Source of the DNA: Elusimicrobiota bacterium
Lineage (GTDB): Bacteria; Elusimicrobiota; UBA8919
Direction of reading: 5' to 3'
DNA length: 64,000 bases
NCBI GenBank assembly: GCA_028718185.1
Contig: JAQUMH010000001.1
Location: 95,186-159,185 of the forward strand
Below are positions 33,253-37,893 of the stretch, piece after piece. The notes under the pieces were generated by a model. The model made no database searches. It had not been told where the DNA came from and worked only from the letters and a program-made list of their open reading frames with translations. Position 1 is the first letter of the stretch; every line of letters begins with the position of its first letter. A program made the translations under genes and the position numbers.

Positions 33253-33263
33253 TTTAAATAATA

Positions 33264-33450
33264 TCTGAATTTAGACTTACTTAAAAATCATTTTTTTATG
33301 ATATAGATGTTTTTAGCTTATAAAATCGTTAAAAATTGCTATGTCTGACGAGCAAAGCGAGGAGTTTAGCAATTTTAGATTTTTTAAGCGTTAAAAAACA
33401 TCGTTAAATAAAAAAACTGATTTTTAAGTAAATATTCTGCCCTATTCAGA
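33264..33450. repeat. 187-bp imperfect palindrome (MITE-like)
   Basis: TCTGAAT...ATTCAGA at the ends, a 14-bp perfect pair TTACTTAAAAATCA/TGATTTTTAAGTAA inside, and further pairing up to a centre at about 33354 (GACGAGCAAAGCGAGG). It has no ORF, so it resembles a miniature inverted-repeat element or a very long hairpin. It marks the left border of the accessory region. Confidence 0.75.
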
Positions 33451-33577
33451 CACTTACCAAGATTTTCCCACCGTCGTAGATGAATTTAAGTTTATTATCA
33501 AACTAATTAAAAAAGGTAAGAAAACACTTATTTTTACTTGAAATGTGATTATAACAAATTTTTATATTTATTTCAAC

Positions 33578-33612
33578 AAAAAAAGCAACCTCTTTTCAGA
33601 AGTTGCTTTTTT
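33578..33612 (-). terminator. Intrinsic terminator downstream of the PEGA lipoprotein gene
   Basis: GCAACTTCT/AGAGGTTGC-type stem flanked by A7 on one side and T6 on the other, 24 bp past the stop of the lipoprotein gene. The T and A tracts on both sides allow termination in both directions. Confidence 0.8.
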
Positions 33613-33635
33613 AAGTAAAGTATTATTATTTATGG

Positions 33636-34034
33636 TTATTTTTTTGTTGCTTCCAGAGATGTATTTATTGTTGTTGGTTCTAAATCATTCCAAGCACCTG
33701 TTAAGCCATCTACTATTAAGCCAAAACCACCCCATAACAAAATATCCCATACCAAATAACTTGTTCCCATTCCATTGTTAATACTGACCATTGAAGGTTC
33801 ATAACCATCTTTGGCTATTTTAATAGAATGGTCTTTCTTGGATGTCAATTTTAAGGAAGTTGGTGTTTTACCAAGCATAGCACCACTACTTGCATCAAAA
33901 ATTTTAGCCCCTGATGGTTCTGAATTGAATGTTATCTGTCGTTGTGAACCTTTAGTAATAGTTGCACAACCAGAAAACATTATACTTGAAATAATACTCA
34001 TACATACAAAGATACTAAACACTTTTTTTAACAT
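33636..34034 (-). CDS. PEGA-domain lipoprotein
   Basis: 132 residues: lipoprotein signal ending SGC (Cys23), a PEGA-like beta domain (ITFNSEPSGAKIFD...GKTPTSLKL...HSIKIAKDGYEPS) and a C-terminal hydrophobic region with WDILLWGGFGLIVDGLTGAWNDL. Similar small outer-membrane lipoproteins are common in Gram-negative accessory regions. It is transcribed in the same direction as the GIY-YIG gene 36 bp upstream and may be cargo of the mobile element. Confidence 0.72.
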   Translation of the reverse strand: MLKKVFSIFVCMSIISSIMFSGCATITKGSQRQITFNSEPSGAKIFDASSGAMLGKTPTSLKLTSKKDHSIKIAKDGYEPSMVSINNGMGTSYLVWDILLWGGFGLIVDGLTGAWNDLEPTTINTSLEATKK

Positions 34035-34069
34035 ATCTAATCACCCCCTTTTTTTGAGACCTTTCTCCA

Positions 34070-34588
34070 TCAAAAAATATTTTTTTTTGAACGCTTTAAA
34101 TATTGATGAAGAATGCATATTTCATTACCATATTCTTTTCCGTAATGAACTTTAATTAACTTCTTTTTTAACATTTTTGCTTTATATGGGTCAAGAAGTG
34201 GGTCATAACCTGATACACTAACTTTTATAAAACCATATCTTTTAATAATTTTTTCTAAAAATTTTAATCCACATTGTTGGTTCTGATTAGGAAACCTATC
34301 TATCTCATTTGAGATTTGTAAAAGTATTTGTTCAAGTATTTTTGCCTTGAATTTATATTCTTTTTTAGAATTATCTCCTATAATTGCTAATAATCCACTT
34401 ATAGGTTTTGCACACTTATCACTATTTTTCATATGGTCTGATAATCTTCTCATTATCAATCCTTCTCCAATATAAGTGGGTTTAACCCAAGCCCTACCTG
34501 ACCATATAACATATACTCCAACTGCATTAAAAAGTTTATCAACAGGTATATCTACCAATCTTAGAAACTCTGCATCTATTTTTAACAT
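34070..34588 (-). CDS. GIY-YIG nuclease-like protein
   Basis: 172 residues from the ATG at 34588 (AAGGAG upstream). The first half has the GIY-YIG signatures GVYVI (24-28) and YIGEG (39-43), with conserved Arg48 and His52, and a Glu in the helix KILEQILL. The C-terminal part (KFLEKIIKRYGFIKVSVSGYDPL) is not recognised. GIY-YIG enzymes cut DNA in homing, restriction and repair. The gene is preceded by a structured leader of about 190 nt with its own promoter, unusual for a nuclease gene, and sits in the mobile element with a serine recombinase. Confidence 0.72.
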   Translation of the reverse strand: MLKIDAEFLRLVDIPVDKLFNAVGVYVIWSGRAWVKPTYIGEGLIMRRLSDHMKNSDKCAKPISGLLAIIGDNSKKEYKFKAKILEQILLQISNEIDRFPNQNQQCGLKFLEKIIKRYGFIKVSVSGYDPLLDPYKAKMLKKKLIKVHYGKEYGNEICILHQYLKRSKKNIF

Positions 34589-34591
34589 AAT

Positions 34592-34776
34592 TACTCCTTG
34601 CCCCAAATAAAAAAGGGCACATATCAGTATCGGCAACTTGTAAGTAAAACCGATATTGACTGCCACCCTTTCCGTCCGAAGACGGAGTATGACAGCAAAA
34701 CCCTTACTTACAAGTTAGGTGGACTCTCTCCACCTTTAAGGATATGCTAAAAAACTACTTAATAACAAAGAACTAT
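34592..34776 (-). ncRNA. Pseudoknot-capable structured leader RNA
   Basis: Predicted transcript from about 34776 to the GIY-YIG ATG. In 5'-3' order on the minus strand it has hairpin GGTGGA/TCCACC (34736-34720 region); arm AACTTGTAAGTAA (34716-34704); hairpin CTGTCA/TGGCAG (34695-34660) capped by CCGTC-TTCG-GACGG; and a 9-bp stem CAATATCGG/CCGATACTG whose loop carries TTACTTACAAGTT (34647-34635), perfectly complementary to the earlier arm. Loop-arm pairing would make a pseudoknot. The C-A mismatch on the plus strand becomes G-U on the minus strand, supporting an RNA on that strand. A U-rich tract and GGGGC near the ribosome site could serve expression control. Class unknown. Confidence 0.6.
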
Positions 34777-34782
34777 AAGATT

Positions 34783-34810
34783 ATTATAATAAATCAAATA
34801 TAAAAGTCAA
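34783..34810 (-). promoter_or_regulatory. Predicted promoter for the structured leader and GIY-YIG gene
   Basis: Minus-strand TTGACT (34810-34805) and TATAAT (34788-34783) with 16-bp spacing. Transcription would start near 34776, giving a leader of about 188 nt. Confidence 0.65.
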
Positions 34811-34852
34811 CACATTTTTTTATAATAAGATAACTATAAATCCCATAAAAAA

Positions 34853-34900
34853 TACCGCAATATTTACCGCAGATAATACCATTCAAAATACCACAGTAAA
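34853..34900. repeat. Four 12-bp iterons beginning TACC
   Basis: TACC occurs at 34853, 34865, 34877 and 34889, exactly 12 bp apart, each followed by a similar A-rich octamer (GCAATATT, GCAGATAA, ATTCAAAA, ACAGTAAA). The array lies between the two divergent promoters of the element. It could be a recombination accessory site, operator or replication iteron. Confidence 0.6.
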
Positions 34901-35088
34901 TCAACACTACTGATAACTAAAAACTACAACAAGTAAATTATAAAAAATATGTTATCCCAAGAAATATATATTTTTCTATTTATTGTTTTTTATTGCAATT
35001 ATATTTTACTTTTATCTTAATTGCACTTTTGCGAATTCCAACTATTGCCCACCTCAAAATAAAAATATTATAAAAAATAAAAAAGTGC

Positions 35089-35135
35089 TTGACAAAAATA
35101 TTTTTATATGATACACTATGATACATAAGGATACA
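35089..35135 (+). promoter_or_regulatory. Promoter and GATACA operator of the HTH gene
   Basis: TTGACA (35089-35094), 17 bp, then TACACT (35112-35117). GATACA recurs at 35110, 35120 and 35130, a strict 10-bp period covering the -10 region and start site. This is the arrangement expected for autorepression by the HTH protein encoded 23 bp downstream. Confidence 0.6.
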
Positions 35136-35157
35136 ATACAGCATATTATAGGTTTTT

Positions 35158-35442
35158 ATGAAGAAAGATTATATTGATAAAGGATTTTTAACAACCCAGC
35201 AAGTAGCAGAGGTTTTTGGAAGGGCAAATGTTACTATCCGTAAATGGATTGGAAAGAAAAAAATAAAACCTGCTTTAAAAGCAGGAATGCTTAATCTTTT
35301 TAATGTTAAAGATATTCTTGAATTGGCAAGGAAAGAAAATCTGTATTTAATAAGCCCTCCCCCAGCATTTCTGACTAAAGCCGTGAATTCAATTAAAACG
35401 AATTCAAAACAAAAGGGAAAGGAAGCGTGGCTTATAGGTTAA
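35158..35442 (+). CDS. MerR/excisionase-like helix-turn-helix protein
   Basis: 94 residues. The N-terminal winged-helix motif (LTTQQVAEVFGRANVTIRKWIGKKKIKPALKAGMLNLFNVKDILELAR) is of the MerR/excisionase (HTH_17) type; the last 35 residues are unstructured and basic. It probably controls the divergent promoters and/or recombination directionality of the element. Three GATACA repeats on its promoter are candidate binding sites. Confidence 0.72.
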   Translation: MKKDYIDKGFLTTQQVAEVFGRANVTIRKWIGKKKIKPALKAGMLNLFNVKDILELARKENLYLISPPPAFLTKAVNSIKTNSKQKGKEAWLIG

Positions 35443-35536
35443 TAAAAATATGAAAGAATATTCATAAATTATATAGGAGGAAACTTAAATACAATTAAAA
35501 AATATAATTATTTTAAATAAAATATAAGATAAAATC

Positions 35537-35566
35537 TTGACATAAGTCAGAGTAATTAAATACACT
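35537..35566 (+). promoter_or_regulatory. Predicted promoter upstream of the small acidic ORF
   Basis: TTGACA (35537-35542), 18 bp, TACACT (35561-35566), the same -10 hexamer as the HTH promoter. The start would be near 35573, only about 13 bp before a terminator-like hairpin. Confidence 0.5.
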
Positions 35567-35585
35567 TTCATAAAAGAAAGTTAGC

Positions 35586-35622
35586 CAACTGAACTTTATT
35601 ATAGAGTTACAGTTGGTTTTTT
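35586..35622 (+). terminator. Intrinsic terminator or attenuator
   Basis: CCAACTG...CAGTTGG with an inner AACT/AGTT extension, followed by nine T residues. It lies between a promoter and a well translated small gene, so it may act as an attenuator or define a tiny RNA of about 50 nt. Confidence 0.75.
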
Positions 35623-35659
35623 TTTACAAGTAACAGGGAACGAAAAGGAGGTGATTATT

Positions 35660-35815
35660 ATGTCAAATAGAATAGTAGTTTACGATAAAAAAGAAATTGT
35701 AGACTTGCTAAAAACAACTCTTGCAAAATTTGAATTAAACCCTGACGAAACAACTGTCAGTGAGTTAATTGCAGAGTTACAAGGAGACGATGATGATGGC
35801 GACGATGATGAATAA
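35660..35815 (+). CDS. Small acidic protein of the mobile element
   Basis: 51 residues with an excellent AAAAGGAGGTG ribosome site. The N-terminus is basic and mixed (MSNRIVVYDKKEIVDLLKTTL), the centre predicted helical, and the tail is nearly all Asp/Glu (GDDDDGDDDE). No family recognised. Acidic tails occur in DNA mimics and recombinase partners, but that is speculation. Confidence 0.6.
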   Translation: MSNRIVVYDKKEIVDLLKTTLAKFELNPDETTVSELIAELQGDDDDGDDDE

Positions 35816-35832
35816 TCATCATAAGCCATCGG

Positions 35833-35874
35833 ACTGTAGGGCGGGCAAAGGTAGTACTTCAACCGCCCTACAGT
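35833..35874. repeat. 12-bp perfect inverted repeat
   Basis: ACTGTAGGGCGG (35833-35844) and CCGCCCTACAGT (35863-35874) with an 18-nt loop, between the two small ORFs. There is no U-tract, so it is not a standard terminator. Each arm has GTAG/CTAC near its foot. Confidence 0.7.
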
Positions 35875-35907
35875 TATAAAAAAATAATCAAGTTAACGTG
35901 TGAAAAT

Positions 35908-36072
35908 ATGTTTTATATTGACCCAGAGGACTTAACACCTGAAGAACGATTAAATAAAATTGTTGAAATTTTAACAACGGGTGTATTGCGTTTATGTGAA
36001 GAACAAAATATTAAAACTACCAACCTACCTGAAAATTCCAAAATAGAAAATAAAAAAGATAAAATATTTTGA
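35908..36072 (+). CDS. Small helical protein upstream of the recombinase
   Basis: 54 residues beginning MFYIDPEDLTPEERLNKIVEILTTGVLRLCEEQ. Short proteins with a PEERL...IVEIL..GVLRL helix are commonly encoded just upstream of large serine recombinases in phages and integrative elements. Function is unknown, possibly a recombinase accessory factor. It precedes the recombinase by 64 bp. Confidence 0.6.
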   Translation: MFYIDPEDLTPEERLNKIVEILTTGVLRLCEEQNIKTTNLPENSKIENKKDKIF

Positions 36073-36136
36073 TGATTTATATTGATATATCATAATAAAT
36101 ATTATATAATAATACCATATTAAAGGGGGCTGATAT

Positions 36137-37726
36137 ATGGAGCAAAATAATATTGTTAAACGTTGTGCTGTATATACAAGAGTATCTACAGAAGAGCAGG
36201 GTAGAGGTTCAGATTTCACTTCAATAGATAATCAAAGAGAATGTAGTAAAGATTTCATTAAAAGTCAAAAAACAGTAGGTTGGCAAGTTTATCCTGAAAG
36301 TTACGATGATATTGGTTTTTCTGCAAAAAACATTGAACGACCTGCACTAAAAAGATTATTGACTGATATTCGCCAAAAAAAGTTTGATATTGTTGTAGCA
36401 TATAAATTTGACCGACTTTCACGCAATATAAAAGATTTTGTTAAGATATTAGACATATTTGAACAATATGGTGTATCTTTCGTAGCAGTAACACAACGGT
36501 TTGATACTTCCACTTCTACAGGTAGAATGATGATGACTATGTTAATGGGATTTGCCCAGTTTGAACGAGATATAATTAGCGAACGAACACACGATAAATT
36601 AAAAGCAATGGCAGAGAAAGGTAAATGGCGAGGTGGAGTACCTATTATTGGTTATGATATTAAAGACAAGAAACTTGTTGTAAATGAAAATGAATCAGAA
36701 CAAGCAATTGACCAGTTTTCATTTTATCTTAAAGAAAAATCTTTAAGCAAAGCCGCTAAATTATTAAATGCAAAAAACTACAGGTTAAAAGAATGGATTA
36801 CAAAAGCAGGTAATAAAATTGGCGGTAGAAAATATAATAAATGCAATCTTGCTTTTATTTTAAGAAATCCTCTACATATAGGAAAAATACGCTATAAAGA
36901 TACTTTATACAATGGCGAACATAAATCAATAATCCCAGATAAGCTATGGAATGTAGTTCAAAAACTTTTAGATAAAAACGGGATAACACATAAATCTGAA
37001 AATCAAGATAAACATAATTTTTTATTGAAAGGGTTAATAAGATGTAATTACTGTAGTTCAATGATGTCGCCAAATTTTGCTTATTCTCCCAATAATCATA
37101 AATATTTTTATTACAAATGTGTAAAGGTTTACAAAATGGATAAAACTGCTTGTAAAATTGGAAGTGTTCCAGCAAGAGAAATTGAAAAAATTGTTATTCA
37201 GAGATTAGCATTTCTTGGGAATAACAAAACTATTATAGAAAAAATAACAAAAAAAGCATTGGAGTCAAGTTATAACGAATTACCAACTTTAGAAAAAGAA
37301 AAAGTAAAATTAAATAGAGAATATACCAAGATTGAGCAAGAAGGTAAAAATTTAGTAGATATTCTTGCAAAAGATGAACAAAAGAAAAATAATGATTTTG
37401 TATTAACAAAATTAGATGAAATGCAAAAAAGTAAAAATGCTTTATCCGAAAAGAAAGAACAAATTGCCCTTGAAATAAACAAACTACAAAACAGAGTTAT
37501 TGATGCTGAAATTATAAGAAAAAATCTACAGACTTTTGAGAAAATTTTTGATAAACTTACACCTGTTGAACAGAAAGAGTTATTACAACTCCTGATTAAA
37601 GAAGTTATTTATGATGAGGACAATTCTAAAATAAAAATAAGCCTACGCCAGTTACCTGACATAAACTTATTTATTCAAGATAAAAATGTATGTTTTGACG
37701 AGAGTATGGTTAGTCTGCCAGGCTAG
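36137..37726 (+). CDS. Large serine recombinase
   Basis: 529 residues. The N-terminal resolvase domain has the nucleophile in YTRVSTEEQ (Ser17), FDRLSRN and the RMMMTMLMGFAQFERDIISERT helix. A recombinase domain follows (180-290), then a zinc ribbon with Cys303, 306, 328 and 339, and a coiled coil (380-470). This is the complete large-serine-recombinase architecture, so it is likely functional. GGGGG precedes the ATG. The stop codon falls inside the 3' end of the oppositely oriented tRNA-Gln gene (12-bp overlap), suggesting a junction between element and chromosome. Confidence 0.95.
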   Translation: MEQNNIVKRCAVYTRVSTEEQGRGSDFTSIDNQRECSKDFIKSQKTVGWQVYPESYDDIGFSAKNIERPALKRLLTDIRQKKFDIVVAYKFDRLSRNIKDFVKILDIFEQYGVSFVAVTQRFDTSTSTGRMMMTMLMGFAQFERDIISERTHDKLKAMAEKGKWRGGVPIIGYDIKDKKLVVNENESEQAIDQFSFYLKEKSLSKAAKLLNAKNYRLKEWITKAGNKIGGRKYNKCNLAFILRNPLHIGKIRYKDTLYNGEHKSIIPDKLWNVVQKLLDKNGITHKSENQDKHNFLLKGLIRCNYCSSMMSPNFAYSPNNHKYFYYKCVKVYKMDKTACKIGSVPAREIEKIVIQRLAFLGNNKTIIEKITKKALESSYNELPTLEKEKVKLNREYTKIEQEGKNLVDILAKDEQKKNNDFVLTKLDEMQKSKNALSEKKEQIALEINKLQNRVIDAEIIRKNLQTFEKIFDKLTPVEQKELLQLLIKEVIYDEDNSKIKISLRQLPDINLFIQDKNVCFDESMVSLPG

Positions 37727-37785
37727 GACTCGAACCTAGAACAAGGCGTCCAGAGCGCCCCGTGTTACCATTACACCACCCGGCA
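37715..37785 (-). tRNA. tRNA-Gln (anticodon CTG)
   Basis: 71-nt cloverleaf on the minus strand: acceptor TGCCGGG/CCTGGCA, D arm GTG...CAC, anticodon arm GGGCG-CTCTGGA-CGCCT (anticodon CTG, codon CAG), T arm CTAGG-TTCGAGT-CCTAG, discriminator G. CCA is not encoded. The last 12 bp overlap the serine recombinase ORF on the other strand. It lies near gltX. Confidence 0.93.
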
Positions 37786-37796
37786 ACTTTTATATT

Positions 37797-37892
37797 ATAG
37801 AGTTTTAGAGTTATAGGGTTTTAGGGTTTAGTCTATAACTCTACGAACTCTATAACCCTATAACCCTATAACCCTATAACTCTATAACTCTT
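37797..37892. repeat. Telomere-like simple repeat array 1
   Basis: T/G-rich words (AGAGTTATAGGGTTTTAGGG) on the left switch to A/C-rich words (AACCCTATAACCCTATAACT) on the right, so the array can fold back on itself. The period is about 8. It ends at the stop of the DUF1844 gene. Confidence 0.75.
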
Positions 37893-37893
37893 T

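Follow-up and report, generated by a model that had tools for sequence, protein, structure and literature searches.

In the cobalamin riboswitch, a regulatory hairpin has a loop that base-pairs with a segment lying further upstream. The leader described here has a similar arrangement; however, its 11 bp form within a fixed 16-nt loop, the partner is a bulge in the helix P0, and the sequences are unrelated. T-box leaders are alike in their terminator/antiterminator logic, and the window copy contains AGGGUGGCA, which resembles the T-box sequence. A T-box assignment was rejected: the UGG is not conserved, the Omnitrophota copies have GAAAUGCAG, and UGGN is also absent from copies L076 and L078. 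Moreover, neither aminoacyl-tRNA synthetase nor amino-acid genes are found downstream, and there is no Rfam match. Orphan riboswitch candidates controlling terminators have been reviewed as a concept (PMC7266159). They share with the present leader a complex conserved 5'-leader fold, an intrinsic terminator that competes with it, and more than one target gene, the targets being unrelated. The leader differs in that it matches none of the 4227 Rfam 15 families, and in that its aptamer-like pseudoknot is built with the terminator hairpin's own apical loop.

The leader occupies 185 nt on the minus strand (34776-34592) of the window, which is the whole stretch of 64,000 nt analysed here from an Elusimicrobiota contig (JAQUMH010000001.1); its parts are listed in Table 1. 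A sequence-only reading had proposed a promoter followed by a hairpin, a 13-nt arm, a second hairpin, and a third hairpin with a loop complementary to the arm. The promoter is present on the minus strand, with a match that is the best of five in the region (shuffles expect 1.6), and the GGTGGA..TCCACC and UUCG-capped hairpins were both recovered. The arm, counted from 34717, is indeed complementary to the loop; the pseudoknot proper is 11 bp, and the next bases of the arm, UAAGG, pair instead with CCUUA 5' of P1. The resulting helix P0 was absent from the earlier description, and the last hairpin described there (P3) forms the upper part of an intrinsic terminator that extends to a U-run. On paper, the 11-bp pseudoknot is compatible with P3, whereas an arm:loop helix of 13-15 bp and P3 are mutually exclusive in full. 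The predicted fold of the 185-nt strand has an energy of -64.9 kcal/mol (z = -6.2), which none of 200 shuffles matched.

Table 1. Positions of the leader elements and of the neighbouring genes in the window
Feature	Position	Strand	Details
Sigma-70-like promoter TTGACT-16-TATAAT	34783..34810	-	11/12 match; TTGACT 34810-34805, TATAAT 34788-34783, 16 nt between
Conserved 5' end GUUCUUU	34767..34773	-	just 3' of the predicted transcription start; kept in most copies
Helix P0	34694..34748	-	34748-34737 AGCAUAUCCUUA with 34706-34694 UAAGGGUUUUGCU; P1 and the arm bulge inside
Hairpin P1 GGUGGA/UCCACC	34718..34734	-	
11-nt arm UAACUUGUAAG, 5' pseudoknot strand	34707..34717	-	36 copies; 34717-34707 pairs with loop 34644-34634, 11 bp
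P2	34660..34695	-	P2a 34695-34689 with 34666-34660; apical P2b 34686-34671, UCCGUC-UUCG-GACGGA, UUCG loop
P3	34628..34655	-	UAUCGG-(16 nt)-CCGAUA; 16-nt loop 34649-34634, of which 34644-34634 pairs with the arm
Intrinsic-terminator conformation (predicted)	34605..34671	-	X1 34671-34665 with X2 34619-34615 and the following U; P3 on top
U-run of terminator	34614-34605	-	
X3 GGGGC	34600..34604	-	3' of the U-run, complementary to X2
Ribosome-binding site AAGGAG	34594..34599	-	sequence
172-aa orphan ORF	34070..34588	-	GIY-YIG-like motif GVY..YIG..R..H..E..N
PEGA-domain lipoprotein	33636..34034	-	PF08308, E=2.2e-5; likely second gene of the operon
Excisionase-like HTH_17 protein, window insert	35158..35442	+	PF12728, E=5.5e-8
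Large serine recombinase	36137..37726	+	PF00239/PF07508/PF13408; 3' end overlaps tRNA-Gln
tRNA-Gln	37713-37786	-	tRNA prediction

One fold, composed of P0, P1, a bulge, P2 and P3, is shared by the 36 full-length copies. P0 was found in every one of them, with strands of about 11-16 nt, a CCUUA/UAAGG core and a covarying outer part; it encloses the bulge, which is 11 nt long (YAAC-N7). The apical hairpin of P2 is variable, its UUCG cap being that of the window copy. The loop of P3 is 16 nt in all copies, and the bulge pairs with its 11 final bases. Any loop length from 13 to 19 nt was open to the parser, lengths other than 16 being penalised, and L080 was set by hand. L106 (G003:C50, without the motif) and the truncated copies L111 and L112 were dropped from the set, and an antisense match (L021:1007-1088) proved to be a true copy read on its reverse strand.

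The helices covary, as the sequence-only reading had asked of them. In an alignment of 32 sequences, 92.6% of the cells of 40 pairs are paired, and 31 of these pairs have changed on both sides (208 cells), compared with 20.9 pairs and 56.5 cells in shuffles and at most 16 pairs and 44 cells when the strands were slid. The inner six pairs of P0 are 97.4% paired, with both-side changes; P2a is 96.9% paired (changes on both sides in 5/5 counted pairs) and P3 98.4% (5/6 pairs), while the columns of P1 and of outer P0 are more poorly aligned. Among the well-aligned pairs of the whole family there are 132 G.U cells against 13 A.C cells, an excess that fixes the strand and places selection at the RNA level; the same argument for a minus-strand RNA had been drawn earlier from a single pair in the window.

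The arm:loop helix is 98.6% paired, with both-side changes in 8 of its 11 pairs, and the variable central pairs use all four Watson-Crick types. Among the 36 copies, 33 distinct central 7-mers occur; an arm matches its own loop at 7.9 of 8 positions, compared with 4.5 of 8 when partners are swapped. A pseudoknot of one turn (11 bp) between the P3 loop and the P0 bulge is thus strongly supported by the sequence comparison. In this geometry, the 3' strand of the pseudoknot would continue directly into P3, and five loop bases would have to bridge one helical turn, a span that the constant 16-nt loop would permit.

The arm also changes rapidly. In eight disjoint close pairs of copies, differences at the central seven arm positions number 20 among 56 sites, compared with 52 of 914 elsewhere (p=2e-10), and the loop has changed as often as the arm. 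Selection for orthogonal arms, by which cross-pairing within a genome would be avoided, was rejected: the mean arm distance is 4.06 of 7 within genomes and 4.24 between genomes, which shows no difference, although the closest within-genome pair is never at a distance below 2. The rapid change is therefore better explained by an arm whose sequence is free as long as pairing is strictly kept, the rest of the leader being under selection, and is no proof of a special diversifying process.

The first search with the 185 bases revealed nine further copies in five of 341 Elusimicrobiota genomes. A covariance model built from ten copies then gave 29 matches in 13 of the 341 genomes and at least seven families, a few of the weakest matches being later dropped or found truncated. 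Across all species genomes, a pattern scan matched MAGs of Elusimicrobia and Omnitrophota, and a second model found the leader in 11 of 384 Omnitrophota genomes. A third, small phylum is represented by four genomes, two of which gave a match; in the second of these two, P2 and the terminator are present and the arm was not found. Up to seven copies occur in one genome (seven in G004 and six in G011, ahead of different genes), and the window genome has a single one. No copies were found in the viral, phage and plasmid collections searched, and blastn of the window leader against plasmids gave short partial matches only.

In the search of the window against Rfam 15 at the gathering thresholds, the only match was a tRNA; the only weak match near the leader (E=1.7) lies inside the downstream ORF, and nine homologous loci also gave no leader match. 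A search of open-licence papers on structured RNAs in these phyla returned nothing relevant. The leader is, on the sequence evidence, a real and previously uncatalogued structured RNA family.

A same-strand gene follows the leader in the 33 copies for which the first gene could be called. The start codon is 7-60 nt past the RNA in 23 of them and 84-347 nt away in the others. This placement, directly upstream of same-strand coding genes, is that of a cis-regulatory 5' leader. By a crude rule, a signal peptide was predicted in 18 of the 33 first genes and in 32 of 191 other nearby genes (OR 6, p=1e-5). The Pfam families of the first genes include TPR, PEGA, trypsin-like protease, PDZ, transglutaminase-like and beta-propeller proteins, and cytosolic targets also occur, namely an ECF sigma factor and a DUF2130 protein, each seen once. 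The targets would often be exported or surface proteins and accessory genes. No single pathway is common to the downstream genes in Pfam, and thus no ligand is suggested by them. N-terminal sequences revealed three pairs of related first genes (L076/L078, L082/L083 and L084/L087), which suggests that the leader remains with some genes over time.

P3 forms the top of a longer hairpin ending at a U-run in all copies except L086. A terminator stem of 14-23 pairs with a U-run was found in 36 of 37 copies. For example, the terminator of L110 reads 5'-AAGGGGUG GCA GUCAUUAUCGG [16] CCGAUAGUGAU AUG UGCCCCUU-UUUAUUU. The lower 5' strand of the terminator, X1, sits in the 3' side of P2, so that P2a and the terminator are mutually exclusive. 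The complementarity of X1 to X2 exceeded that in all of 2000 permutations, and that of X2 to X3 was reached by 4 of 2000, relatedness being ignored in both tests. In most copies, the CUG of P2a has an upstream partner, CAG or UAG, in P0; the opening of P2a can therefore be offset by a longer P0. Predicted energies of the nested alternatives, which leave out the pseudoknot, lie close together, with means of -53.3 kcal/mol for the arm:loop state and -49.7 kcal/mol for the terminator, the former being favoured in most copies. Leader-peptide attenuation was rejected, as the leader has no conserved ATG.

Sequence comparison thus shows two mutually exclusive pairings, the pseudoknotted fold and the long terminator hairpin formed by X1 and the C-rich X2 beside the U-run, and a terminator stem in competition with conserved pairing is what distinguishes a transcription attenuator. 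The leader is probably a cis-acting attenuator of this type, and most likely an orphan riboswitch. Against this reading, a clear sigma-70 promoter is missing in many copies, and some targets are cytosolic. We infer termination at the U-run, a ligand and a direction of switching as follows. The pseudoknotted fold would hold X1 in P2 as the polymerase exits the leader, and transcription would read through. If P2a opened, X2 would capture X1 while the CUG of P2a re-paired with the upstream P0 strand, and transcription would stop. In the read-through RNA, X3, which lies beside the ribosome-binding site, would take X2. The ratio of stop to read-through would be set by a signal, probably a small molecule, through which the pseudoknotted core becomes more or less stable.

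The signal of the same switch might also be an RNA-binding protein. All of the evidence for attenuation would also fit a protein; the conserved unpaired AAG before P1, the GUUCUUU and the loop AUUUA could be its binding sites, and the patchy distribution of the leader could track the cognate protein. However, the surroundings of the copies revealed no regulator gene that travels with the leader, and the compact pseudoknotted core is more like that of a ligand-binding RNA, which makes a protein signal rather doubtful. Alternatively, the terminator could be constitutive and the product a free-standing small RNA, trans-acting or structural, with the genes expressed by read-through or from other promoters. 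The window copy has its own promoter and a strong terminator, and in several copies 84-347 nt separate the RNA from the following start codon. A ribosome-binding site and a start codon directly follow the RNA in many copies, however, and the conservation of X3 past the U-run together with the built-in competitor of X1 would make little sense for an RNA that simply stopped there, so that a free-standing product is considered unlikely.

For the leader as an orphan riboswitch, a more specific proposal can be put forward tentatively, at somewhat below even confidence. It might represent a new riboswitch class of uncultured phyla, in which the 16-nt loop of the terminator is one half of a freely varying one-turn pseudoknot, and a portable leader through which exported and accessory genes of different genomes would come to answer to a single signal. 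The class of regulatory RNA is apparently undescribed, and the phyla that carry it (Elusimicrobiota, Omnitrophota and the small third) have hardly any genetics. The fold, known from 36 copies with a 16-nt loop that never varies and a pseudoknot free in sequence but strict in pairing, is fixed enough for a direct test. Once found, the signal would reveal what these bacteria sense when making surface and accessory proteins. A terminator loop that forms part of the sensing fold would moreover be a useful new design for RNA switches.

The leader also appears to be mobile in two senses. Firstly, the window copy lies in an insert of about 4.4 kb (33253-37712) between the 3' end of tRNA-Gln and pfpI, which contains the leader, the orphan ORF, the PEGA lipoprotein, the serine recombinase and the excisionase-like gene. 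The insert is absent in G003, where tRNA-Gln and pfpI are 8 nt apart, and in G005, where the distance is about 600 nt; in relatives, tRNA-Gln occurs with pfpI or eno and no insert. A direct repeat of at least 14 bases of the tRNA-Gln end was not found at the other side of the insert. Secondly, pairwise comparison of the surroundings showed that homology between copies is mostly limited to the leader itself, spanning about -176 to +21 relative to where the RNA ends. The site behind queF carries different leaders and different toxin-antitoxin genes in two genomes; one of these leaders has a close relative behind lspA in the other of the two genomes, accompanied by the same DUF2442-type module.

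A site of recombination at the DNA level, similar to integron attC, would explain such flankless leaders with changing neighbours through folded single-stranded DNA. The leader is likewise short, foldable and near variable genes; only its own sequence is common to the copies, at changing sites, with toxin-antitoxin genes upstream, and some recombinases close by, and the arm:loop helix has AAC..GTT at its base. However, the GTT core is variable: GTG in L076, L078 and L079 (CAC/GTG) and GTC in L077, L080 and L098 (GAC/GTC) break the attC core. The 132:13 ratio of G.U to A.C needs selection on RNA, and the position ahead of genes is fixed and regulatory, with a U-run and a ribosome-binding site and no arrays of copies. 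A recombination site is therefore very unlikely. A retron was also rejected, since the window copy has no reverse transcriptase in its neighbourhood and the pseudoknot accounts for the a1/a2-like pairing. A self-cleaving or otherwise catalytic RNA might be suggested by the compact pseudoknotted fold and the conserved unpaired bases; yet no Rfam ribozyme matches, the strand order is unlike that of HDV, twister, pistol and hatchet, and the U-run and switch strands indicate termination, which leaves catalysis highly improbable.

The 172-aa ORF behind the window leader is an orphan that is GIY-YIG-like by motif alone. The motif arose in 4 of 20000 shuffles. Pfam gave no match at E<=10, including PF01541, and no confident family was obtained in Pfam, NCBIfam or PHROGs. 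No relatives were found in 100 related genomes, in 84,980 species genomes scanned with peptide patterns, or among viral contigs, phages, plasmids and the PDB. A structure model from the single sequence had a low pLDDT of 39.7. An RNA partner or guide of a GIY-YIG-like protein is hardly credible: the RNA and the ORF are adjacent in the window, but relatives of the protein were found at no other full-length copy nor anywhere searched, and unrelated genes follow the other leaders. An OMEGA/HEARO-type RNA was rejected similarly, as the nuclease ORF is missing from other loci and there is no consistent pairing with one nuclease family. Thus, from the proposal of a new cis-regulatory or mobile RNA that controls or partners a nuclease, the pseudoknotted cis-regulatory RNA and its mobility are supported, whereas the nuclease link is not.

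Several other features were observed around the copies. In the interval between the PEGA gene and pfpI there is an inverted repeat (33277-33431) of 38 nt, 82% complementary and 79 nt apart. Between tRNA-Gln and the gene adjoining gltX, tandem AACCCTAT octamers face an inverted copy in an inverted repeat with 34-nt arms (37795-37893). Toxin-antitoxin type genes lie just upstream of the RNA in about 10 of 17 Elusimicrobiota loci (L074, L075, L083-L085, L087 and L107-L110), and include HicA/HicB, DUF2442/DUF4160, PIN, MqsA, DUF433/DUF5615 and HI1420 antidote types; the downstream control set has one toxin-antitoxin family among the 25 families listed. The contig ends 100-380 nt past the RNA in five copies and less than 500 nt before it in one (copies near contig ends: G007:C92, G007:C77, G004:C126, G003:C26 and G344:C86), which would fit a region behind the leader that is repeated or differs within the population. 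In G004:C126, the start of a group II intron (RF02005, 5.6e-6; L125 1-83) lies tens of bases past the leader terminator. The truncated leader L111 (G011:C13) is broken in the P3 loop, where it gives way to a genuine GIY-YIG gene (PF01541, E=1e-16). A CRISPR-like array with the translated repeat VVDCGQASISYN is located at most 1.3 kb upstream of the RNA in L088.
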